Part shown: in pieces, positions 2,809-14,614 of the stretch
Position numbering within the stretch: the first letter of the stretch is position 1
Layout of the letters: each line of letters opens with the position of its first letter
Assembly: GCA_029224465.1 (NCBI GenBank)
Contig: JAQXUQ010000024.1
Coordinates: 1-64,000 of the forward strand
Source: Bacillota bacterium
GTDB taxonomy: Bacteria > Bacillota > Clostridia > Lachnospirales > Lachnospiraceae
DNA length: 64,000 nucleotides
Reading direction: 5' to 3'
The notes under the pieces: model-generated
Databases searched by the model: none
Seen by the model: the letters and a program-made list of their open reading frames with translations, nothing else
Told to the model about the DNA's origin: nothing
Made by a program: the position numbers and the translations under genes

Positions 2809-4953
2809 TCAATTCCTATGTTCACGTTCAACTTTCTGCCGAACCTTAGCCCTAATCTTATCGGTATCAAATCCACAAAAAATAGTTCTAATAATAAGAT
2901 ATGTTACTATGGTAAGTCCACCACTTACAATATATTTAAAAAAGTCATACATCATCTGTTCTTTTTCAGTTATATTAGTTAAGCTCTTAATCCAATGAAA
3001 GATCAAGTATATGATCAAGCACAAAATGGCGACCAGTAAAATAGTAATAATCCAATTTCTAATAAGAACACCCTTAGTCCTTCGATCAGTTTCATCATCT
3101 ATATACTTATCCTTGGCCTGCTGAACAGCATTTTCTTTTTCTTTTTCTGAATTGTCTTTATATCTTTGTTGATCCGCCTTCAATTCATTAAGAGTAGCCT
3201 CATGCTGATCTTTGAGCTTTCGTAATCCGCGATTATATTCCTCCTTATCAGCTTCATGCTGAAGTTTCGCAATTCTCTGCTCTTCTTTTCTCGCTTCAGA
3301 AACTTTTTGAGAAGTAACGCTTTCTAAGCCTTCTTCAACAATAGCATCTATGTCCTCATATATATCTGCGTCACTTGGATTATTTTGGAGCTTATCCTCT
3401 ATATTGAATAAAATTGAATCTTTAATATCTTGAGGTTCTTGTAAATTAAGGACCTTATTAAGAATTGCCAATTTACTGTTTTCGATACCATCTGGCTTTC
3501 TTTCACCATTTTGAAGGCTGAAATTTAAAAATCTTGTGAAAGCGGTATAATCATCATTTGTATTTCTGCCAGCATATTGAAGAATTATTGAATACCACAC
3601 AGAAGGTAGAACAACAATAGGAACCGCATTTGGAACCTTTTCTCTTCCCCAATCTCCGAAGGCATGATCAGCAGAAATTAAATAATGATGTGTGCTGAAG
3701 AAATCATTAGCATTATTGACCGAATTCATTTTCCTAACAAACAAATAATTGCTAACATCAACTTCTGCAGCATGAATACTGGCATTTCTATTTGATCTTT
3801 GTTTGAATTTAATCAGTGATTCAAGATCATCTCTAAAAACATCATTATCTTTAAAAGAATCACAATTTGCATATTGAATACCATAGCGACTAAGTGTTCT
3901 GTGTGCTTCTTGCTTTAATTCTCTGCCAAAAGAAGCGTAGTTATTATATTGATTGGCTGGATCATTGCACCAATCCCTATAAACTTGATAAAAATCAGGA
4001 TTTACAACAGAGCTGGCATAATATCCAATAGCACGTGTACTTACTGGAATATGTCCACCAATAACTTTCCGTATCCTTTCGACGTTTCGATCAATTGTAT
4101 CATCTATCTCTTTACGTGTGAAATTTGTAACTTTTAGTTTAATATCGACTGCTTTACACTTATTCACAAAAGCGCTGATAACACGTTTCCTATTTTCACG
4201 GTTAATTCCAACTAATCGAAAAATTACATTTGCATCTAAATAAAACACCTTATTATTAAAGATTTTCTGGTAAGTTTTTGAATCTTTCTTTACTGTCATC
4301 ATGCAATAATCAAAACAGCATGATACAAGCTCATATACCATCCTATCTTTTTCTGGGTTTTCCCAATACACAAACTCATTAATTAATTTCTTCTCAGCTG
4401 GATTGAAGTCAGAATCCGAGAGTTTATCTGTGTCATACCTCTGTCCAAGAAAACTTCTGATGTATGAAGCATTCGAATTAAAAAGAGTATAAAAATACTT
4501 ATAGAGTATGTCACGTACTTCATCTGATGAAAATGAATCCGCTTCAAAAGCCTCAGATCCATTGTTTTCTTGATCATCGCTTGCTTTGGTTTTATATCCT
4601 ATAAATTCAGAAATAATCGTTTCTAGAGAATGGTCCTTCACTTTACTATCTATGCGCTGAATTTCCTCAACAGAAATAGTAAATTTCTTAGGTTTCTCTG
4701 AGAGACAAATAAATGCAGATGTTCTGTTATGCTTTATAGCATCAAAAACTTCTGTTTCAGAAAATTCTAATTCATAAGAGTTTCTTAAGTTTTCAATAAT
4801 ATCGACTACTTCATACCCTTTGAACTTACCATTTGAACTCTTTTCAGCATCATAAAGGACGAGAGAAATCATCTTTTCTAGATTTTTCCGCAAAGATGTA
4901 GCTTGGTTATTGTTCAGCATAAATGCCAATCGCAAATATTCATCAACCTGCAT
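2809..4953 (-). CDS. PIN-like domain protein with coiled coil and two C-terminal membrane helices
   Basis: The 714-residue protein starts at ATG 4953, seven bases after GGAAGGAG. Residues 232-250 (FNNKVFYLDANVIFRLVGI) match the first strand of PIN-like nucleases, with D240 and N242; further acidic candidates are E282, D397, D399 and D429 (ISADHAFGDW). Residues 550-625 are a charged coiled coil. Two membrane helices follow at about 629-655 and 672-693, with a basic tail. The likely picture is a membrane-anchored RNase-type protein with its nuclease domain in the cytoplasm. PIN domains are metal-dependent RNases common in toxin and defence contexts; activity here is inference. It is low-GC and sits in an island of broken and mobile genes. 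Confidence 0.6.
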   Translation of the reverse strand: MQVDEYLRLAFMLNNNQATSLRKNLEKMISLVLYDAEKSSNGKFKGYEVVDIIENLRNSYELEFSETEVFDAIKHNRTSAFICLSEKPKKFTISVEEIQRIDSKVKDHSLETIISEFIGYKTKASDDQENNGSEAFEADSFSSDEVRDILYKYFYTLFNSNASYIRSFLGQRYDTDKLSDSDFNPAEKKLINEFVYWENPEKDRMVYELVSCCFDYCMMTVKKDSKTYQKIFNNKVFYLDANVIFRLVGINRENRKRVISAFVNKCKAVDIKLKVTNFTRKEIDDTIDRNVERIRKVIGGHIPVSTRAIGYYASSVVNPDFYQVYRDWCNDPANQYNNYASFGRELKQEAHRTLSRYGIQYANCDSFKDNDVFRDDLESLIKFKQRSNRNASIHAAEVDVSNYLFVRKMNSVNNANDFFSTHHYLISADHAFGDWGREKVPNAVPIVVLPSVWYSIILQYAGRNTNDDYTAFTRFLNFSLQNGERKPDGIENSKLAILNKVLNLQEPQDIKDSILFNIEDKLQNNPSDADIYEDIDAIVEEGLESVTSQKVSEARKEEQRIAKLQHEADKEEYNRGLRKLKDQHEATLNELKADQQRYKDNSEKEKENAVQQAKDKYIDDETDRRTKGVLIRNWIITILLVAILCLIIYLIFHWIKSLTNITEKEQMMYDFFKYIVSGGLTIVTYLIIRTIFCGFDTDKIRAKVRQKVEREHRN

Positions 4954-5175: not shown

Positions 5176-6717
5176 ATGACCAAGTATCGTGAGATTCTTC
5201 GGCTCAAGAGCCTGGGATTCAGCGACCGAAACATTGCACGCAGCTGCAGTGTTTCACGCAACACGGTCAGGCGCGTGATCGATAAGGCAAATGAGATGGA
5301 CATCTCATGGCCTCTCGATTTCGGCATGACCGACGGTGCGCTCGAGGAGCTTCTGTTCCCGAGCGACAAGTCGGTGACAGACAGACGTCTTCCCGATTAT
5401 GACTACATCCGCAAAGAACTCTTGCGGAACGGTGTCACCAAAAAGCTTCTGTGGATCGAATACTGCGAGGGATGTCGGCAGGCAGACGAAGAACCTCTCA
5501 TGTATTCCCAGTTCTGCGAATACATCCGCAGAGACGAGCAAAAGCGCCGTGCAACTATGCACATCCCCAGAAAGCCGGGCGAGCAGATCGAGGTTGACTG
5601 GGCGGGAGACCCCGCACACATCATCGATCCGGACACCGGTGAGATCACTGACTGCTGGCTGTTCGTGGGCGTAATGACTTACAGCCAGTACACATTCGTC
5701 GAAGCATTTATGAACGAACGGACAGGGAACTGGATTAAGGCCCATGTCCACATGTTTGAATTCTTCGGCGGCACTGTACCGATGATCGTGGCCGATAACT
5801 GCACAACAGCGGTCGATCATAAAAAGAGTGACTGGTATACACCGGTACTCAATACGACGTATCACGAAATGGCAGAGCACTATAATGTCGCGATTCTGCC
5901 GGCCCGTGTACGCCGTCCCAAGGACAAACCGAATGTAGAAGGTTCCGTAGGCAAGATATCTACCTGGATCACTGCCGCCTTACGGAATGAGCAGTTCTTC
6001 TCGCTGGCGGAATTAAACGCCGCCATCCGGAAGAAGCTCGATGCCTACAACGCCAGACAGTTCCAGAAAAAGGAATGCAGCAGGCGCGGCCTGTTTCTTG
6101 GGGAAGAACAGTCATTACTGGCACCTTTGCCTGCCACACCCTTCGAACTGGCCGAATGGAAAATCGCCACCGTACAGTTCAACTATCACATCGCAGTAGA
6201 TGGTATGTACTACTCAGTGCCTCATCAGTATATCAAAGATAAGGTCGATGTGCGGGTGACAGACACAACAATTGAAGTTTTTTATCATCACGATCGGATC
6301 GCTTCCCATCGCCGTCTTCACGGCAGGAACGGCCAGTATTCCACGGTCACAGAGCACATGCCCGATGATCACCAGAAATATCTGGAGTGGAACGGCGACC
6401 GATTCCGCAGATGGGCGGATCAGATCGGACCAAACACACGAAAGGCGGTTGATGCAATCCTTACCTCCGGCCGGGTCGAACAGCAGTCATACAGGAACTG
6501 TATGGGTCTGCTGAGGCTGGCGGACAAGCATACTTCCCAGCGGCTTGAAAAGGCCTGTGAGCGTGCATTGTCCTACAGTGGAAAACCCAGCTACAAAAGT
6601 ATCAAAAATCTCATCACTGCTATGAAGCAGGAACCGGATGCTTTGCCATCTGATAAAGAAGGAAAACCGCGCGGCATAACCAGAGGCGCCAGATACTACG
6701 GAGGTAACAGATCATGA
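5176..6717 (+). CDS. istA: IS21-family transposase IstA
   Basis: IstA is the DDE transposase of IS21-type elements. The 513-residue product starts with an HTH (LKSLGFSDRNIARSCSVSRNTVRRVI, residues 9-34). The DDE core follows: the first Asp lies in EVDWAGDP, the second in VADNCTTAV, and the Glu in KPNVEGSVG. The length is normal for the family. ATG at 5176 follows AAAGGAGGGTCACCATT, with a good ribosome site. Its stop overlaps the istB start (ATGA), the usual coupling in IS21. The gene looks intact. Confidence 0.93.
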   Translation: MTKYREILRLKSLGFSDRNIARSCSVSRNTVRRVIDKANEMDISWPLDFGMTDGALEELLFPSDKSVTDRRLPDYDYIRKELLRNGVTKKLLWIEYCEGCRQADEEPLMYSQFCEYIRRDEQKRRATMHIPRKPGEQIEVDWAGDPAHIIDPDTGEITDCWLFVGVMTYSQYTFVEAFMNERTGNWIKAHVHMFEFFGGTVPMIVADNCTTAVDHKKSDWYTPVLNTTYHEMAEHYNVAILPARVRRPKDKPNVEGSVGKISTWITAALRNEQFFSLAELNAAIRKKLDAYNARQFQKKECSRRGLFLGEEQSLLAPLPATPFELAEWKIATVQFNYHIAVDGMYYSVPHQYIKDKVDVRVTDTTIEVFYHHDRIASHRRLHGRNGQYSTVTEHMPDDHQKYLEWNGDRFRRWADQIGPNTRKAVDAILTSGRVEQQSYRNCMGLLRLADKHTSQRLEKACERALSYSGKPSYKSIKNLITAMKQEPDALPSDKEGKPRGITRGARYYGGNRS

Positions 6718-7490
6718 CCAACGAAAGCACTATTAACAAGTTGATTGAAATGCGACTCACCGCTATGGCCGACGCGTTCCGCATACAGAAGGACGATTCC
6801 TCTATGAAGGATGTCCCTTTTGATGATCGTTTCGGCATGCTGGTCGATGTTGAATACACCAGCAGGAAAAACAACCGGTTAAAACGCCTGATTCGTAAGG
6901 CAGACTTCGAGCAGCCGGATGCTTCTGTCGCGGCAATCGATTACCATTCCGGCAGGAAGCTCAAAAAATCCCTGATCGAGCGGATGGCGAACTGCGAATT
7001 CATCACAGAGTACCGCAATATCTTCATCACCGGCGCAACCGGAAGCGGTAAAACCTACATGGCCTGTGCTTTCGGTATGGAAGCCTGCAAACAGTATTAC
7101 ACAGTACAGTATGTCCGCCTTCCGGATCTGCTCCTTGACCTGCAGGCGGCACGTGACGCCGGGAACTTTCCGTCCGTCCTGAAGAAATACACCAAGCCGG
7201 TTCTGCTGATCATCGATGAATGGTTGCTTCTGAAACTCACGGAGCCAGAGGCAAGGAACCTATTTGAGCTGATCCATAAACGGCGGAAGAAATCTTCCAC
7301 AATCTTCTGCTCTCAATTCCGGGAGTCAGAATGGTATCAGCAGATCTGTGGCGGCGAGAGCGCTCTTGCCGATGCGATTATGGATCGTATTTCCTACGAC
7401 TCCTATAAGATTGACATCGAGAGTGCTGATCCTACCAAAGACATTTCTATGCGAGAAGTCTACGGATTGGATCCCGCGCAGGCCAAGTAA
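6714..7490 (+). CDS. istB: IS21-family helper ATPase IstB
   Basis: IstB is the AAA+ ATPase (DnaC-like) that assists IstA and helps choose targets. The 258-residue product has Walker A GATGSGKT at about residues 104-111 and Walker B VLLIIDEW at about 163-170. Downstream SQFRESEWYQQI and DRISYDSYKI are typical of the family. It overlaps istA by four bases. No frameshift or missing motif is seen, so the element is potentially active. Confidence 0.93.
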   Translation: MTNESTINKLIEMRLTAMADAFRIQKDDSSMKDVPFDDRFGMLVDVEYTSRKNNRLKRLIRKADFEQPDASVAAIDYHSGRKLKKSLIERMANCEFITEYRNIFITGATGSGKTYMACAFGMEACKQYYTVQYVRLPDLLLDLQAARDAGNFPSVLKKYTKPVLLIIDEWLLLKLTEPEARNLFELIHKRRKKSSTIFCSQFRESEWYQQICGGESALADAIMDRISYDSYKIDIESADPTKDISMREVYGLDPAQAK

Positions 7491-7579
7491 CAACGTAACT
7501 CAAATGGGGTGGCTCCGTCAGCCCGGACAGGTGGCTCTCGCCACACCGGACAGGCGGCTCTGCCGCCCCGCAATATTCA

Positions 7580-8000
7580 GGGATGCATCGCCATCTGTGA
7601 TCACATCTCTTGCTTCCGTTCCTCGCGGTAAAGCAGGGACAGTCGAATCTCCACAAAGTAACCACAGATAAACAAGGAACCCAAGTGGGACGAACAGGTA
7701 GCTATTCAAGATGAATGCTTGCCAATACACGCCTGCCAAATGACCGGAAGAGTCCATACCGAAGATGGCTTGCAGAAGTTTCCAGATCTTCTCCCCTGTG
7801 CTCATCGTCACAGCCGTGTGGCCGTAGTCAGATGCGCTGACATCAACGCTTAACCTGATACAGCACAAGAATGTATAGTACACTAACACACATCCGTAGA
7901 TGAGGGAAATGACCTTACGCAGGTTCCGGCTCCGGACCGAAAACTGGAAACCTAGGAGAATGAGGAAGGAGAAAACGAGGATACGTAATAGGAAAATCAA
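7580..8000 (-). pseudogene. VanZ-like membrane protein, copy 2, 3' end lost at the IS21 element
   Basis: The reading frame begins with TTG at 8000, after AAGGAG about 12 bases upstream. It aligns along its length with copy 1 (1188-1820): both have the VDVSA-D-x-GHT segment followed by a STGEKIW motif. At the nucleotide level the two starts are nearly identical (AGGAGAAAACGAGGA). Native sequence ends at residue 140 (DGDAS); the next bases, TGAATATTGCGG, are the IS21 end. The catalytic-looking C-terminal half, with the E-x-x-Q and G-x-F-D motifs, is gone. It lies 51 bases downstream of the 115-residue gene at 8052-8399. Confidence 0.75.
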
Positions 8001-8051
8001 TTATGTTGTTGTCTCCTTCCCTTCTGTATGGTTATTATTGCATATACTCCT

Positions 8052-8399
8052 TCATCTGTTAAAAGCGTGTGATTTTTCGCTTATGCAAAAGTACCAATTC
8101 AAGTCCGAAACATTCACAGGTGAATACCCCATATTCATCATAGCATCCTTGAACTGATTATTTGTTAAGTAAATGCCCGTATCCCTTTCCAAAATGTGTT
8201 TGATCTGATAACTACTATGTTTCCGATTCGGTGTTTTTATTGGGTCAATATTATCAAGAATCCAATCTTCAACTTGTGTTTGTTTATCTTTTGGAAGATC
8301 AGACATTAAGGCAGCATCTTCACCGCGTAGAGCGGGATCAGCAGAACCAAAGCCGACAGACCACGGATGCCCATCAACAATTTTACTAATTTCATCCAT
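8052..8399 (-). CDS. Small conserved protein of unknown function, last gene of the nuclease-kinase operon
   Basis: I set the start at ATG 8399, which has GGAGGT five bases upstream; the frame is open to 8450 but lacks a better site. The 115-residue product carries TPNRKHSSYQIKHILERDTG and YLTNNQFKDAMMNMGYSPV, a pattern I associate with small hypothetical proteins in clostridial mobile regions, possibly a compact helical DNA-binding fold. No catalytic motif is visible. It lies 69 bases downstream of the barrel gene and just upstream of vanZ copy 2, all on one strand. Confidence 0.6.
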   Translation of the reverse strand: MDEISKIVDGHPWSVGFGSADPALRGEDAALMSDLPKDKQTQVEDWILDNIDPIKTPNRKHSSYQIKHILERDTGIYLTNNQFKDAMMNMGYSPVNVSDLNWYFCISEKSHAFNR

Positions 8400-8467
8400 A
8401 TCATACCTCCGCCAATACCAATTGTTCATCAGTAATATATTATCTGGCAATTATATCTTCCCTAAAG

Positions 8468-9664
8468 CTACATTCTCCCCCATTCAAGGTTCAGTTTCAA
8501 TCCATAATTGTCGTTAATATAATACATTGCAACTCTGTTTGCCTCTACTGCACCTGCAAAATCTCGTTGCCTTCCCGTAAGGCCGTACGCTTTGATTGCT
8601 TTCATCTTTGCATCGGCAGCATCAAGCATAAAATCATACATATCAAAGGTTTCTTTATAAGTACCCTTACTTAAAACATTGCATTGTTCCCGCAAGCAAT
8701 ATAAATAATGTCTAAACGAATCTTTTTCTTTGTAATTTGTACTTGTTGGTGTAGCCCCTCGGAAAAGGACTTCTGAATATTTATTTTTATAATTTGTCTG
8801 AGGTTCAAAATCCGAAAGATAGTTAAACTGATACGCTACATCTAACTGTGGTATTTGATATTCACTAAAAGAATTTGGATTATAATACCACGTACTCTTC
8901 TGCTTCGGTGTATTTTCTCGTGGGGTTTTAAACTTATCTGGCATAAACGATCTCGTATTTAAATAATTGCCAGAAGCAATAGCATCAACTTTAGAAAGAG
9001 CAAACACAAGATTCTGATGATTTGAATAACCAGCTATTACTTTCTTTCCCATAGTCTTTAGGCACGTTACAAGCTTTAAAACACCAGTCATCCACAATTG
9101 ATCCCCCACAATATATTCGCCATTAGGATGTTGTGCAACAACGTAATATCCATCAACATCAATATGTTCAAGTAAATTAATAAGATTCTCAATAAAAGTA
9201 AGATTTCTAACACGTTCAGGATCAAGGCAAAGAGTCGCATATATCGGTTTATCAGTCTTTTTTCTAAAATATTCTGCCGATTTCATCATCCACTTCAAGC
9301 TATGATCAGTATTCAGCTCATTAATCTGATCTCCCGGTAATATAATTGCTTCTGTATCAAGTGACTTATTAATCCTAAATAGCTCCTGATCAATACGCGA
9401 ATATTCTCCACCATTAACAATGGATGCGCCTCTCGTCGGCCAATATGGGTATCTCTGCAGTTTAATATGACCCGCTGACGGGTAGAAAATTTGGGGATCA
9501 AAAAGGACCTCTCCTCCAGCTTTTTTTATGCTTTCGGAAAATCCCTGCAGACTTTTGGGTTCAATATTTACAGGACTAAGTATGACATCTCCTTCGCCCC
9601 ATTCATTTAATAACTCAAGGATCATAGCCTGCATTCCATGTCCCATTTGAAAAAATAATTTCAT
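8468..9664 (-). CDS. Predicted beta/alpha-barrel protein, third gene of a nuclease-kinase operon
   Basis: The 398-residue protein has a regular run of hydrophobic strands: DVILSPVNI, GEVLFDPQIF, EAIILPGDQI, KPIYATLCLD, DGYYVVAQHP, KKVIAGYSN and DAIASGNYLNTRSF, each followed by a helix. That is the pattern of a TIM barrel. The arrangement faintly recalls tRNA-guanine transglycosylase-like proteins, but I see no zinc CxCxxC motif and make no such assignment. The C-terminal 100 residues are helical. It starts four bases after the kinase stop, so it is almost certainly co-translated. Conserved polar patches (DPQIFYP, QHPNGEY, GYSNHQN) may form the active site. Confidence 0.55.
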   Translation of the reverse strand: MKLFFQMGHGMQAMILELLNEWGEGDVILSPVNIEPKSLQGFSESIKKAGGEVLFDPQIFYPSAGHIKLQRYPYWPTRGASIVNGGEYSRIDQELFRINKSLDTEAIILPGDQINELNTDHSLKWMMKSAEYFRKKTDKPIYATLCLDPERVRNLTFIENLINLLEHIDVDGYYVVAQHPNGEYIVGDQLWMTGVLKLVTCLKTMGKKVIAGYSNHQNLVFALSKVDAIASGNYLNTRSFMPDKFKTPRENTPKQKSTWYYNPNSFSEYQIPQLDVAYQFNYLSDFEPQTNYKNKYSEVLFRGATPTSTNYKEKDSFRHYLYCLREQCNVLSKGTYKETFDMYDFMLDAADAKMKAIKAYGLTGRQRDFAGAVEANRVAMYYINDNYGLKLNLEWGRM

Positions 9665-9668
9665 AATT

Positions 9669-10511
9669 TTATTCCAATCTCAATGTTGCTTTTACAGCCA
9701 TATAGTATTCTAACGCACGTTTAGCTGATGAAGGTCTTTCTGAAGCATTCTTTGCCATTAGCATTTCTATAAATTGAGAAAACATTCCATTATTATCACC
9801 TTTAAGGACTAACGGTTTAGGCATATACGTCATAGTGAAGTAGTTGACAAAATCTGCCACACCAGATCCTGCATCTCTAAATGGATTATGCCCCGTACAA
9901 GCCTCATATATAGTTACACCTATTGCAAAAAGATCAACTCTAGCATCTTGATCAAGTTTGATGTTATCAACAAGCTCATGAGGAGCATAGCCCGGAGTAT
10001 GCGGTCCATGAGCATCTGTAACTCTGGTATATGAATCTCCGCCAATTACTTTTGCAATGCCAAAATCCAGAAGATATATCTTTCCTTTGGAAAACATTAT
10101 ATTTTCCGGTTTAATATCTCGATGGATTATCCTGTGGCTCTCTAAGACAACTTCAATATTAAGTAAAACCTCTAGAAGTTCACACGCTTGATTTAAAGAT
10201 AATGTAATTCCCTTATTAAGAATCCCTCGGAGTGTATTCCCATCAATAAATTCTTCAACCACATAAATTTTTTCCTCTGAGATGTCTTCATCAAGCACTT
10301 TACCAGACTCAATAATCTTTGGAACATTATCAAGATCCAGACTTTGAGCAATTTTTATCTCTTGAATAGATCTTTGATCGTCTGGATTTGAAATAATCTT
10401 TAAAGCGTAAACTGTACCATCATTTGTGATGGCCTTGTACACAGTCTTCTGTCCACCCCTACCAATGACTGTGGGGTTTTTATATTTTGCAAACAACTCC
10501 TTAATCGTCAT
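9669..10511 (-). CDS. Ser/Thr protein kinase (Hanks type), no membrane anchor
   Basis: All main kinase motifs are present: Gly-rich loop GRGGQKTVY (17-25), Lys38 in ALKII, Glu51, catalytic HRDIKPEN (130-137), DFG (149-151), an APH-E in place of APE (176-179) and Asp193. At 280 residues it is little more than a catalytic domain; there is no transmembrane helix and no PASTA repeats, unlike the housekeeping PrkC kinase. Its ATG overlaps the nuclease stop by four bases (ATGA), and the barrel gene follows after four bases. Such soluble kinases in accessory islands often act in phage defence or toxin control; here that role is inferred from context. Confidence 0.9.
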   Translation of the reverse strand: MTIKELFAKYKNPTVIGRGGQKTVYKAITNDGTVYALKIISNPDDQRSIQEIKIAQSLDLDNVPKIIESGKVLDEDISEEKIYVVEEFIDGNTLRGILNKGITLSLNQACELLEVLLNIEVVLESHRIIHRDIKPENIMFSKGKIYLLDFGIAKVIGGDSYTRVTDAHGPHTPGYAPHELVDNIKLDQDARVDLFAIGVTIYEACTGHNPFRDAGSGVADFVNYFTMTYMPKPLVLKGDNNGMFSQFIEMLMAKNASERPSSAKRALEYYMAVKATLRLE

Positions 10512-11287
10512 TTCAAAAGAACTACCCCCTCTTCTAAATATATAGCTTTATGAATCCACTCATTAAAAAGCAAAGAACCATACGATATTGGAAATTTTCG
10601 TCGATCACCTTTTAAATGCTTCTCGATTTTTCCATTAACCAGTATTATTCCCAATCCAAGTCTCTGACATTTGTTATAGTTTGTTTCACTAATACTTGTT
10701 TTATTCATTAAAATATACGATTCCGAAGCAAACCATCTATTATTCTCTGCCTGTCGTATTGCTTCTCCCCATTTATCGATTTTTGCTTCAATAGCAATCA
10801 AGTTTGTAATTGTACAATATTTGTCTAAGTGAACTTTTCTTACTTTGTTCTTTGCAATGGATGATTGCATAATTAGTCCACAGGAATTTAAATGTTCTAG
10901 TGAAGTATCTACTTCTTCTTCAGGAAATCCAAGAACATTACTTATTTCCTTCTTTGTTCTTCCACTATTAGATTGGAGATAATAAAGAATTTTTAAATCA
11001 GAACTTGTTATTTTGAATCGTCCATCATTCCAGTTTTCTAATGAAATTCCGCTAGTAGTATCAGCACATCTTTTATCATAATATTCTGCAATGACAATAT
11101 CTGGGTATCTCGACTCAAGCTGCGGTTCAATAAATATAGCAGCATTTTTTTGTTTTAATCTTTTATAATGACTGGTGATATACTCAACATATCGCTTAAC
11201 CATTTCGAGTTCTTTTCCCGCTGTTGTTGTACGGACGTAATACCCAATATCAGGAATTGACTCATTAAACAGCAAAACATTTGACAT
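10508..11287 (-). CDS. PD-(D/E)XK-like nuclease with internal winged helix, first gene of the operon
   Basis: The 259-residue protein has the spacing of a PD-(D/E)XK nuclease: E54 and D63 in FIEPQLESRYPDIVIA, then E167-A-K169 in LIAIEAKIDKWGEAIRQA with Q179. Between these lies a winged-helix segment (about 95-155; KKEISNVLGFPEEEVDTSLEHL), which probably reads DNA or senses a partner. The fold family covers restriction and repair nucleases. No signal peptide or membrane helix is seen. It heads a tight operon with the kinase and barrel genes. No clear Shine-Dalgarno precedes the ATG. Family assignment is from motif spacing only; a search is needed to confirm it. Confidence 0.6.
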   Translation of the reverse strand: MSNVLLFNESIPDIGYYVRTTTAGKELEMVKRYVEYITSHYKRLKQKNAAIFIEPQLESRYPDIVIAEYYDKRCADTTSGISLENWNDGRFKITSSDLKILYYLQSNSGRTKKEISNVLGFPEEEVDTSLEHLNSCGLIMQSSIAKNKVRKVHLDKYCTITNLIAIEAKIDKWGEAIRQAENNRWFASESYILMNKTSISETNYNKCQRLGLGIILVNGKIEKHLKGDRRKFPISYGSLLFNEWIHKAIYLEEGVVLLK

Positions 11288-11547
11288 AATTAAATCTCTA
11301 TACTTCTTATAATCTTTTGTTGGTGATGAGGGTTATTGTATCGTCTCTCCTGATTCATGCACATCACGAATACGCTCTTAGGAGTACCAATCCACCATAT
11401 GGATTGCTACATGTCTGATTTCTGTGTAAACCTTCTAGTCATCAAGTAGTCATGTGAATTCATTATACCCCTGCAAGTATAGCAGAACCCTAATCTTTCG
11501 TATTCAAATTGCTATGATCGGTAACGCTGTCTACCACACTGATATTA
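11288..11547 (-). other. Intergenic stretch upstream of the nuclease-kinase operon
   Basis: I find no gene in these 260 bases. They must hold the promoter of the minus-strand operon, but no convincing -35/-10 pair is visible. A short near-palindrome, AATCCACCATATGGATT, lies at about 11389-11405. The sequence is AT-rich like the operon. Confidence 0.4.
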
Positions 11548-12300
11548 TTACAATTTTCCTTCTTTAATGATCCTCACTGTATGTTCAAATCCAGTTCTTG
11601 CATCAAATAGTCCATTCCATCCTAAACTCATAAGTTTTTCGGAATTCAGGGAACTGTTTTGCATAGGATTAAATGCTTTCTTCTCCTTCGCATCTGGTAC
11701 ATCCATGACTAGCTTCACGCCAGCCCCCTTTGCCAGCAACTCTGCCATGTCTTTGATGCTAGCCACCGATGAAGGATTTGAAATATTATAAGCATTCATA
11801 TTTTGTCCTTTTACAAGAATTGTTAATATTGCAGATGTAGAATCCAAACAATAGCACCACGATCGTATCTGCTCCCCTGTACTTTTCATCACAAGATCTT
11901 TTTCATCTGCCACGTTAAAACTAAATACAGCACTTACATGGCTGTCATTTCTTCTAGCTGTCGGACCATATATATGTCCTGGTCTAACGATTGTTGTCTT
12001 TATTCCTCTCTCATCCGAGAAACATGCGCATAAGGTTTCCGCTGCTCGTTTTGAAGAGGAATATGAAGACCTCGGGGAAAGGATGTCAACCCACCCGTAT
12101 TCATTTTCCGAAAAAGGTTCTATTGATTTCTTACTGCCATAAACTTCAGACGATGAAATATAAAGTGTATTCTTAACATCTTCACAACTTGCATACTCTA
12201 GCAATTCGTATATGCCATTGAAGTTATCAAGCATTGTCTCTATACCATGTGTCGAAATATCTTTAGGTCCAGAGTTTGATGCTTTCAATCCCGCAATTGT
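11548..12300 (-). pseudogene. NAD-dependent epimerase/dehydratase, N-terminus missing
   Basis: This is the C-terminal part of an extended short-chain dehydrogenase of the nucleotide-sugar epimerase type. SSSEVYG gives the catalytic Ser, SPRSSYSSSKRAAE contains the YxxxK pair, and VRPGHIYGP is the usual post-catalytic motif. The Rossmann GxxGxxG that binds NAD is absent. Homology seems to begin near ASNSGPKDI at about 12290; the reading frame beyond runs into the end of the HAD gene and is not native. The break marks the junction between the low-GC island and the core genome. Sugar-nucleotide modification was the likely original role. Confidence 0.75.
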
Positions 12301-12319
12301 AAAAGCGCATCTCCCGCAT

Positions 12320-12940
12320 TTATGCAGGCTCCTCCCCCGCAAGCAGTTTATCAAGCGCTTCCGCCAGCATTGCCCGCCCGGTCACCTGCACCGCGCGGAT
12401 GCCGCATTCGATCGCCGCTTCCACATTTTCCGCGCGGTCATCGAAGAAAATGCATTCCTCCCTGGTCAGGTTGTACCGGCGGACCAGTTCTTCATAGATC
12501 GCGTGATCCGGCTTTACAAGATACACCGTGTAAGACACGATTTTTCCGTCGATATCTTTCATGAAATCCGCATACTGCGTATGTTTGCGGAACAGATCTT
12601 CCGAATAATTGGAAAGCAGATAGATGCCGTATCCCTTCTCTTTGAGCTTATGGACGCGGTCCCAGATTTCGGGCCGTGCGACCGGCATATATTCCCCGTG
12701 GCGCAGAAACCAGGCCATGACTTTTCCGTCTTCTTTGTATTTGTGAAGGTAATCCGCGATGATTTCATCCCGTGTCCTGACGCCAAGGTCCAGCTCGTTC
12801 CAGAGCGGATCGTCCAGCATCAGGCGCCCTACGCGCTCCGCCTCTTTTTCCGAAAGGCCGTAATCCATCAGGACATATTTCCATCTGTACTGCAGCAGAA
12901 CACCGCCCACATCAAAGATCACCGTACGAATTTCACTCAT
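12320..12940 (-). CDS. HAD-superfamily hydrolase, YihX-like sugar phosphatase type
   Basis: The 206-residue protein opens with VIFDVGGVLLQY, where Asp10 is the HAD nucleophile, and continues with LLSNYSED (motif II Ser/Asn), KPDHAIYEELV (motif III Lys) and ECIFFDDRAENVEAA (motif IV Asp pair). The helical cap between residues 15 and 85 is class C1. Layout and length match the subfamily containing E. coli YihX, a glucose-1-phosphate phosphatase; substrate is not determined. ATG at 12940 follows GGAGG with six bases. It is transcribed divergently from galT, which may reflect a shared interest in sugar phosphates. Confidence 0.88.
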   Translation of the reverse strand: MSEIRTVIFDVGGVLLQYRWKYVLMDYGLSEKEAERVGRLMLDDPLWNELDLGVRTRDEIIADYLHKYKEDGKVMAWFLRHGEYMPVARPEIWDRVHKLKEKGYGIYLLSNYSEDLFRKHTQYADFMKDIDGKIVSYTVYLVKPDHAIYEELVRRYNLTREECIFFDDRAENVEAAIECGIRAVQVTGRAMLAEALDKLLAGEEPA

Positions 12941-13054
12941 TGAATGCCTCCATCATTCGTCTTTTCCATTGAAACGTCGTCACTGAAATGTCATTATTAT
13001 AGCATAGCTGAAGCTCAGCCTATGAAAGATACAATAGACAGGGGGAACATGAAA

Positions 13055-14614
13055 ATGAATGAATTTTCCGTCGAAGACAGCGTTCTGCATTTGTGCGGCT
13101 ACGCTTTGTCTAAACAGCTCATCACCGAAGATGATCTTTTTTACGCCGCAAATACGCTCTTTGATATGCTGCAGTTCACGCCTTCTTCTGATTTTCAGCC
13201 GATGCGTGCGGCGCAGCCTTCCTACGCGCAGACACCGCTCGAGGAGATTTTGAGGCAGCTGCTGGATGATGCGGTTTCCAGGGGCGTCATCAGCGACGGC
13301 ATTGCGACCAGAGATCTTTTCGATACGCGTCTTATGAGCGCTCTGACACCGCGGCCGTCCGAAGTAATCCGCGCGTTCCGAAGCAGGTACAGCGAGTCTC
13401 CCGAAGCTGCAACAGACTATTTCTATAAACTTTCCTGCGACAGCGACTATATCCGCACCTACCGCGTCCGCAAAGACCGCAAATGGGTCGCGTCGACGCC
13501 TTACGGAGATCTTGATATCACGATCAATCTTTCAAAGCCGGAGAAAGATCCCCGCGCGATTGCGGCGGCTCTCTCTTCCAGACAGGACAAGTATCCCAAA
13601 TGTCTTCTCTGCCCGGAAAATGAAGGTTACGCAGGCAGGCTCGACCATCCGGCGCGGCAGACGATCCGCCTGATTCCGCTGACACTTGCGGGAGAGCGCT
13701 GGTACATGCAGTATTCTCCGTATGTGTATTATAATGAGCATTGTATTGTTTTATCGGAAAACCATGAGCCGATGAAAATCGAGCCGAAGACTTTCACGCG
13801 TCTTCTGGATTTCATCACGCAGTTCCCGCACTATACAATCGGTTCGAACGCGGATCTTCCGATTGTGGGCGGTTCCATCCTGACGCACCAGCATTTTCAG
13901 GGCGGGCGGTATACGTTTGCAATGGCCCGCGCAGGTGTGAAGGAGGAGCTTGCATTCAAAGGCTTTGCGGATGTGCAGGCAGGCGTCGTTGACTGGCCGC
14001 TGTCTGTGATCCGTCTGGACGGGGATGATCCCGCAAGAATCTGCGAACTCGCGGGTAAGATTCTCTCTGCGTGGCGCGCCTATTCGGACGAGAGCGCGGG
14101 TATTCTCGCGCAGACGGACGGAACGCCGCACAACACGATCACGCCGATCGCGCGTCGACGCGGCTGTAAATATGAGCTTGATCTGGTGCTCCGGAACAAC
14201 CGGACGACAGAGCAGTATCCGCTGGGCATCTTCCATCCGCACGCGGAGCTGCATCATATTAAGAAGGAAAATATCGGGCTGATTGAGGTGATGGGACTTG
14301 CTGTTTTGCCGGCAAGACTGCTCGGAGAAATGGCACAGCTGCGTGACGCGGTGCTGACAGGAAAGAATATCCACGAGATACCGGAACTTGCCTCGCACGC
14401 GGACTGGGCGGATGAGATTGAAAGAAAACACCCGGAAATCGCGGGGCTGCGGGAATCCGGTGCATCAGAAGCCTCCGCCGAAGCAATGGACCAGGTTCTG
14501 CGCGATGAAATCGGACTTGTCTTCTCGAAGGTGCTGGAATGCTGCGGTGTCTTCAAGAATACGCCGGAGGGAATGTCGCAGTTCAGAAAATTCGTGGAAG
14601 CGGTGTCAGAGTGA
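13055..14614 (+). CDS. galT: UDP-glucose--hexose-1-phosphate uridylyltransferase, Firmicutes class
   Basis: GalT exchanges UMP between UDP-glucose and galactose-1-phosphate in the Leloir pathway. The 519-residue length and motif set fit the class II GalT of Firmicutes rather than the shorter E. coli type. CLLCPENEGYAGR lies at 183-195, and THQHFQGGRY at 277-286 contains the nucleophilic His region. FHPHAELHHIKKENIGLIEVMG follows in the C-terminal half. I chose ATG at 13055 rather than 13049 because GGGGG at 13041-13045 would sit only three bases from the first ATG. No galK or galE is adjacent. Confidence 0.92.
   Translation: MNEFSVEDSVLHLCGYALSKQLITEDDLFYAANTLFDMLQFTPSSDFQPMRAAQPSYAQTPLEEILRQLLDDAVSRGVISDGIATRDLFDTRLMSALTPRPSEVIRAFRSRYSESPEAATDYFYKLSCDSDYIRTYRVRKDRKWVASTPYGDLDITINLSKPEKDPRAIAAALSSRQDKYPKCLLCPENEGYAGRLDHPARQTIRLIPLTLAGERWYMQYSPYVYYNEHCIVLSENHEPMKIEPKTFTRLLDFITQFPHYTIGSNADLPIVGGSILTHQHFQGGRYTFAMARAGVKEELAFKGFADVQAGVVDWPLSVIRLDGDDPARICELAGKILSAWRAYSDESAGILAQTDGTPHNTITPIARRRGCKYELDLVLRNNRTTEQYPLGIFHPHAELHHIKKENIGLIEVMGLAVLPARLLGEMAQLRDAVLTGKNIHEIPELASHADWADEIERKHPEIAGLRESGASEASAEAMDQVLRDEIGLVFSKVLECCGVFKNTPEGMSQFRKFVEAVSE

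Follow-up and report, generated by a model that had tools for sequence, protein, structure and literature searches.

A mobile trio of a likely nuclease, a protein kinase and a predicted tRNA-guanine transglycosylase-fold barrel, possibly an undescribed anti-phage module

The defence kinases PD-T4-6, MAD6 and Stk2 either act on their own or belong to a larger system linked to methylation. The 64,000-nt stretch of Lachnospiraceae DNA analyzed here (contig JAQXUQ010000024.1; hereafter the window) likewise encodes a Ser/Thr protein kinase, B, which lies between a likely PD-(D/E)XK nuclease, A, and a TIM barrel, C. Our analysis revealed the three genes together in 18 loci, the window and 17 others (L-numbers label the loci compared with the window). 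B differs from PD-T4-6 in that it is not stand-alone but adjoins C in 18/18 trios, and from MAD6 in its size (280 amino acids, aa), in its partners A and C, and in its score of 102 bits against the NCBIfam MAD6 equivalog, for which the cut-off is 460. We propose, with a probability of about one half, that the three genes are inherited together as a mobile conflict module, most likely directed against phages. In this proposal A and C are the core, C most likely being a binder that does not exchange bases, and B fills a slot whose occupant can be swapped. The module is widespread and real, and apparently undescribed.

Several described systems share individual features with the trio. PglW of type-2 BREX and DndF-like fusions combine a restriction-type nuclease domain with a Ser/Thr kinase, but as one large fused protein within a multi-gene system for which the available text mentions no barrel (PMC12839542), whereas the trio consists of three small genes. 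The KKP prophage module contains phage-borne Ser/Thr kinases with an anti-phage effect; however, it pairs kinases with a phosphatase, and neither a nuclease nor a barrel is mentioned in the available text (PMC11341870). Homologues of tRNA-guanine transglycosylase (TGT) mark DNA in Dpd systems, and TGTs occur beside HerA and PglZ in BREX-related systems (PMC12839542); escapers of GrwAB map to DpdA (PMC12137116). The trio resembles Dpd in linking a TGT-fold protein to a DNA-cutting enzyme, but the nucleophile of C is apparently missing and the trio has a kinase. DpdB and DpdC were not noticed in the flanks of the trio, although no dedicated search for them was made. Hma, classed as a DUF499-centered relative of BREX (PMC12839542), is a neighbor of the L013 trio only, and its proteins are unrelated to A, B and C.

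The original prediction knew of no named system with this composition, and none was found in the libraries searched (PADLOC, Pfam and NCBIfam) or among the open-access papers listed by full-text searches. In these PMC listings, no title or start of an abstract combined a kinase, a nuclease and a TGT-like barrel, and the words barrel and transglycosylase are absent from the main text of the DefensePredictor paper (PMC13092281). Since most subscription papers, supplements and bioRxiv lay outside this search, the trio may be listed elsewhere as a candidate system.

Conservation and spread of the trio

In the window, A (11287..10508, minus strand, 259 aa), B (10511..9669, minus strand) and C (9664..8468, minus strand, 398 aa) are all intact and form a compact operon. 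The stop codon of A and the start codon of B share a four-base ATGA overlap (10508..10511, minus strand), which may permit translational coupling, and four bases separate B from C. This arrangement, noted in the original prediction, was confirmed from the coordinates and sequence of the open reading frames (ORFs). The low-GC setting also held, with a GC content of 0.32, 0.36 and 0.36 for A, B and C, respectively, against 0.507 for the whole window. C is present as a single copy in the source genome. A scan for promoters and terminators gave no useful signal (12 promoter-like sites against 15.6 expected).

The nearest copy of the window trio lies in an uncultured member of the Lachnospiraceae (L002, ONBW01000048.1). 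In a blastn comparison covering window positions 8001-11600, 84% DNA identity extends over 8166..11309 (minus strand), starting 22 bases before A and ending 302 bases after C, and stops outside this cassette within the range compared, suggesting that the cassette moves as a unit. Codon changes of the synonymous and nonsynonymous types number 80:32 in B and 127:37 in C and are therefore mostly synonymous, whereas those in A (58:50) are only slightly so; A evolves faster than B and C. The recurrence of the trio in 17 other loci, together with the mostly synonymous changes in B and C, shows that the trio is more than a local chance association.

The 18 loci, compiled by hand, are the window, L002, L004, L013, L014, L015, L017, L018, L020, L024, L027, L032, L035, L051, L052, L076, L093 and L098. 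Among them, the C ORF of L018 has only 147 aa, C of L052 is truncated where the locus ends, and L076 and L098 each have one ORF that extends to the locus end. B and C lie on the same strand in every locus, with gaps of -52 to +46 bases, the overlaps being upper estimates since most ORF starts are those of the longest ORF. A adjoins B or C in all 18. The order is A-B-C on one strand in 14/18 loci and B-C-A in the other 4/18, where A lies on the opposite strand in three. L004 is a plasmid of the haloarchaeon Natribaculum breve, and L093 is plasmid pPNAP03 of Polaromonas naphthalenivorans, in which the kinase and a hypothetical protein are annotated and A is unannotated. The other hosts are genomes of the window's phylum and viral contigs from IMG/VR. 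Conservation of the neighborhood, which the original prediction had left to be checked, was thus found across distant hosts, bacterial and haloarchaeal.

The spread of C is patchy. With a single-protein query, and counting the source genome itself, C was matched in 1/99 relatives, 2/392 genomes of the order and 8/398 of the phylum; a profile query, counted in the same way, matched 11/398 genomes of the phylum and 2/391 of the class. Two of the 11 phylum matches (G529 and G559) are weak, and the DNA fetched around them contained no C-family ORF. Across these surveys, the C family occurs in 0.5-3% of genomes, and no match was found among 60 other genomes of the same genus. This low frequency and the absence from the same genus are the pattern of horizontally moving accessory genes. 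Plasmid searches with C of the window, L035 and L024 returned only the Natribaculum and Polaromonas plasmids, and those with C of L076 and L051 returned none. Named phage records gave no C homologue with three queries, and Escherichia coli genomes no match by DNA for one C gene.

Viral contigs were scanned by several routes. Window C alone and haloarchaeal C gave no match, the C alignment A3 recovered C in 1/86 candidate stretches, and three of eight stretches found with the FDPQ pattern contain C. A nuclease-pattern scan yielded 54 stretches, 52 of which were new loci. An A-family ORF is present in 25 of these 52; it is accompanied by a C-type barrel in 13 (only a 95-aa piece in L042), by a kinase and no barrel in five, and stands alone in seven, some of these ending at the edge of the stretch. 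Two locus pairs share a contig (L055 with L020; L050 with L023). Beyond the 18 trios, L104 has open A and C and a kinase split over two ORFs (9156-9997); L029, L041, L068, L069 and L078 have A and a kinase or kinase fragment and no C in the stretch; and L044 and L050/L023 have A and C where the stretch ends. L016 and L005, described below, are likewise not counted among the 18.

The nuclease, the kinase and the barrel

A carries the PD-(D/E)XK signature E...D...ExK...Q, and E54, D63, E167, K169 and Q179 are invariant in the 8/8 aligned homologues. In 12 short relatives of A, D41, E53, K55 and Q65 are invariant and E32 is nearly so. A winged helix occupies approximately residues 92-151 of window A (Pfam TrmB, 4.9e-5, just under the cut-off); the Pfam matches of this protein, all below cut-off, fall within the winged helix alone. 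A structural model built from five sequences (predicted local distance difference test, pLDDT, 67.9) places this helical insert in the nuclease core, between D63 and E167, and the secondary structure of the model is compatible with a restriction-endonuclease fold. PADLOC-DB (2023) has no named model for the nuclease domain, the matches of A lying in the winged-helix region. The residues of the motif are invariant but the Foldseek matches are dominated by MarR-like winged helices, so the nuclease fold rests on the motif. Our results therefore bear out two parts of the earlier assignment, the motif and the winged helix of the window protein, and leave a third, the fold, neither demonstrated nor refuted by Foldseek. 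A is likely a nuclease, which the motif supports and the fold search leaves unproven.

The short relatives add to this picture. Twelve short forms, drawn from the kinase trios, the sister systems and loci with A only, weakly touch 13 Pfam families; the three best are of the restriction type (MTES_1575, HSDR_N and Mrr_cat_2), HSDR_N_2 and NucS_C are also among them, and most others look unrelated. Against NucS in the PDB, the short forms gave a weak match (E 0.1) with D and ExK in register. A of L017, L018, L035 and L093 is short and has no space for the winged helix, whereas the remaining 14/18 trio proteins are of the longer form; the winged helix is thus optional in this family. A of L004 (6420-7109) and A of L017 (8122-8526) match phrog_22231, a PHROGs phage protein family of unknown function, at 9.2e-12 and 1e-4, respectively, suggesting that viruses carry this nuclease family too.

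B was predicted to be a soluble Ser/Thr kinase with a full catalytic set, and this was substantiated. It matches Pfam PF00069 (Pkinase) at E 3.3e-35, the Lys/Glu, HRD and DFG motifs are all present, and K38, E51, H130, D132, K134, N137, D149 and G151 are invariant in 12/12 aligned homologues. The best PADLOC models are MAD6 (1.9e-41) and PD-T4-6 (1.7e-38), matches that probably reflect generic kinase similarity.

C has no Pfam, NCBIfam or PADLOC family at E 1, and its single PHROGs match (E 0.15) is not significant. Twelve sequences of the window, L002 and viral contigs, three of them partial, were used for an AlphaFold2 model, which shows with confidence a TIM barrel followed by helices at the C-terminus (pLDDT 78.5; predicted template modeling score, pTM, 0.85). 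Against the PDB this model gave 62 matches at E 0.001 or better (best 5.4e-5), and 46 of the 50 best matches listed are TGTs of archaeal, mammalian and bacterial origin, many entries being the same bacterial enzyme. By this model, C can be assigned to the TGT-type TIM-barrel fold. The barrel of the original prediction and its lack of a family model thus stand, while its description as unassignable does not; no housekeeping role for the barrel emerged from the family and structure searches. The idea of an ordinary metabolic TIM barrel was dropped, since TGTs dominate the PDB matches and the genomic pattern is wrong. We also found no direct sequence-profile link between C and TGTs, and the assignment is kept on structure and the sister barrels described below; neither C nor the sister barrels gave useful matches in profile searches of PDB sequences.

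D56, P110, Y174 and G232 of C are invariant in 17/17 sequences. By strand order, 'FDPQ' with invariant D56 matches 'TDSGGFQ' of TGTs at the end of the third strand, 'DGYY' matches 'DGYA', and 'ASGNYLNTR' matches 'FDCVLPARNGR'. In TGTs, an Asp acts as the nucleophile of base exchange. At the position expected after strand 8 (residues 230-232 of C, in a register set by strand order against the TGT consensus), Asp is present in 0/17 sequences, and no zinc-site CxCxxC..H motif was seen in the sequence of window C. C resembles the TGT, archaeosine TGT and DpdA superfamily in predicted fold, in D56 and through the Cys motif of its sister barrels, but differs in the apparent lack of the nucleophile and in having no visible Cys motif, no Pfam TGT match and no direct profile link. 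The nucleophile appears to have been lost in C on this modeled register, suggesting that C most likely acts by binding a base and not by exchanging it.

An exchangeable third gene and the possible role of the module

Four sister barrels (L053, L046, L049 and L100) link C to TGTs. Their profile matches that of C at an hhalign probability of 97.5, with the 'DP' motif kept, and genuine TGTs at 39.7; the TGT-like CxCxxC and His are invariant in 4/4, and each barrel is accompanied by an A-type nuclease. In the viral contigs L046 (6572-9755) and L053 (5706-8899), the zinc-type, TGT-like barrel stands with a SIR2_2 protein and a short PD-(D/E)XK nuclease, and no kinase was detected beside the module. 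In the near-identical L049 (7051-9414) and L059 (8455-10818), a 202-aa ORF lies ahead of the barrel and nuclease genes and overlaps the latter; it is hydrophobic in L049 and, judged by eye, possibly a membrane effector. In the short stretch examined of L100, no third partner was seen. Panacea (SocA-like) antitoxin-type ORFs occur near the nuclease at 10815-11462 of L059 (Pfam E 0.0064, below the cut-off), at 8901-9488 of L053 (PADLOC PDC-M19A, 1.9e-7; Panacea-like by eye) and at 9757-10140 of L046 (by eye).

The kinase slot is therefore variable, a SIR2-like or hydrophobic protein being present instead in the sister lineages. Anti-phage systems commonly use SIR2-type and membrane proteins as suicide effectors. 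A kinase that occupies their place in the module is more suggestive of an effector or transducer than of a switch dedicated to the nuclease. A conserved A and C core with a swappable effector or transducer slot would fit, by analogy, the common grammar of anti-phage systems, and the sharing of the trio by very distant microbes and virus contigs gives it the look of an undescribed antiviral system. Tentatively, we extend this to a bacterial and archaeal immune-system family built on a repurposed TGT fold, which might combine a sensor barrel, a PD-(D/E)XK nuclease and interchangeable effectors.

We infer defence, sensing by C and the order of events as follows. A TGT barrel free of the nucleophile would offer a ready pocket for guanine-like bases or tRNA, and C might thus recognize tRNA, nucleotides or modified bases of phage DNA. 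On recognition, an A-C complex would cut DNA and trigger B, which would phosphorylate host or phage targets and stop the infection. If this were so, the barrel of a tRNA-modifying enzyme would be a new sensor fold in microbial immunity, working with an exchangeable kinase, SIR2-like or membrane protein. The module would also provide a direct test case for the sensing of phage 7-deazaguanine DNA modification or tRNA changes, a predicted role for a protein without a Pfam, NCBIfam or PADLOC model, and a kinase-based effector whose substrates are accessible by phosphoproteomics.

The neighborhoods of several loci are mobile or defensive. The L032 trio lies beside a phage terminase, as do A and the kinase fragment of L041, and the genes of L104 lie beside integrase- and relaxase-like ORFs (by eye). 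Directly upstream of the L013 trio are HmaB (1104 bits) and HmaC (1092 bits), the Hma helicase not being seen in the stretch examined, and in L004 a type IIG/DrmMI-like enzyme lies upstream, two ORFs away.

Other observations weigh against an anti-phage module of this composition. When selected neighbors were compared with PADLOC in 5/18 trio loci (the window, L002, L004, L013 and L018), known defence genes were present in 2/5; the two neighbors scanned in L018 look like housekeeping genes, and those of L015 look metabolic or signaling. L016 has B and C and no A in a 4.7-kb contig, which ends 154 bases after C. In L005 (8278-10879), a C homologue (31% identity) stands with an AAA_14 ATPase (PADLOC PDC-S01) and with neither an A-type nuclease nor B. 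The whole nuclease fold was not recovered in the Foldseek search with A, Card1 and Ecl18kI being weak matches (E 0.01-0.03), and Pfam does not detect the winged helix in A of either L004 or L013. The similarity of C to TGTs is moderate (TM-score by query 0.37-0.53, root-mean-square deviation 6-12 Å); a direct profile comparison gave an hhalign probability of 0.1, mixed TIM barrels were best in a viral structure library, with a queuine tRNA-ribosyltransferase eighth, and the register of the nucleophile was set without superposition. Furthermore, we know of no phage assay for any member of the trio.

In one of the other explanations, B would serve solely to regulate A, releasing DNA cleavage by phosphorylation of the nuclease or of its winged helix, and the barrel would be a separate enzyme. 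This model agrees with the ATGA overlap in the window, with the adjacency of A and B in 14/18 trios and with the invariant catalytic residues of both proteins in the aligned homologues. However, in 4/18 trios B is beside C and A is beyond C, three times on the other strand; nuclease and barrel occur without a detected kinase in L046 and L053 (SIR2) and in L049 and L059 (hydrophobic protein); and the short A of four trios has no space for a winged helix. We consider this model unlikely. The original suggestion that the kinase switches the nuclease accordingly survives as far as an active-looking kinase is concerned, while a dedicated switch looks less likely, since the kinase is the member replaced in the sister lineages.

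The module might instead serve as a toxin-antitoxin or a plasmid or prophage maintenance system, in which a kinase, SIR2 or membrane toxin is restrained by A and C and phage defence is secondary. Carriage by plasmids and viral contigs, the swappable third gene, and the Panacea-type ORF two genes from A in L059, along with ORFs of similar appearance next to A in L053 and L046, are in keeping with such a role. On the other hand, ordinary antitoxins are smaller and less enzyme-like than A and C, and the surroundings of the kinase trios, which were not systematically searched, showed no apparent antitoxin-like gene. This, too, appears improbable to a similar degree.

A still smaller chance is given to a restriction-modification-like system, in which C, like DpdA, would place a modified base in host DNA, A would cut unmodified DNA and the kinase would tune the response. 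Such a system would account for the TGT fold of C, the neighboring nuclease and the parallel with Dpd, but the expected nucleophile position has no Asp in 17/17 sequences, the Cys motif of the sister barrels was not seen in window C, and no gene for preQ0 synthesis was noticed near the trio, although such genes were not specifically sought. A housekeeping or metabolic operon with no role in conflict, to which the scanned neighbors of L015 and L018 would point, is equally doubtful, since C is very patchy, is found in 0/60 other genomes of the same genus, is accompanied by a nuclease, and occurs in an archaeon as well as in bacteria and also on plasmids and viral contigs.

Flanking genes and side observations

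A small ORF follows C in the window (8052..8450, minus strand, 132 aa from TTG), and a later in-frame ATG is preceded, by eye, by a GGAGG-like site. L002 has the first part of this ORF, but there the frame ends early; the ORF was therefore dropped as a fourth gene and is not counted as core. It has no Pfam, NCBIfam or PADLOC family, and the other loci were not systematically searched for it.

The insertion sequence (IS) elements and broken genes reported around the trio were recognized again. An IS21-like pair (5176-7490, by eye) lies to the left, and an epimerase gene without its N-terminal part (11548-12354) to the right, together with a HAD hydrolase gene. Two similar VanZ-like ORFs (1314-1820 and 7518-8000) flank the IS21-like element, one on each side; Pfam VanZ was matched at 2.8e-6, just below the cut-off, for 1314-1820 only. 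Judged by eye, the 714-aa protein encoded at window positions 2809-4953 is PIN-like in its first half and has a coiled-coil, membrane-spanning end; PADLOC gave no match for it, and its Pfam matches are weak.

Three viral contigs carry A-type nucleases with no barrel detected: L056 (3627-4733), near a C5 DNA methylase; L062 (2055-3546), near an IstB-like ATPase; and L080 (11973-13309), near a DUF1828 protein. In L016, a HEPN-like protein (801-1472; Pfam RiboL-PSP-HEPN, E 0.0015, below the cut-off) lies upstream of the kinase-barrel pair. In L105, a trio is adjoined by a second, short A-type nuclease ORF (10669-10929) and an SMC-like ATPase (11938-14331, by eye).

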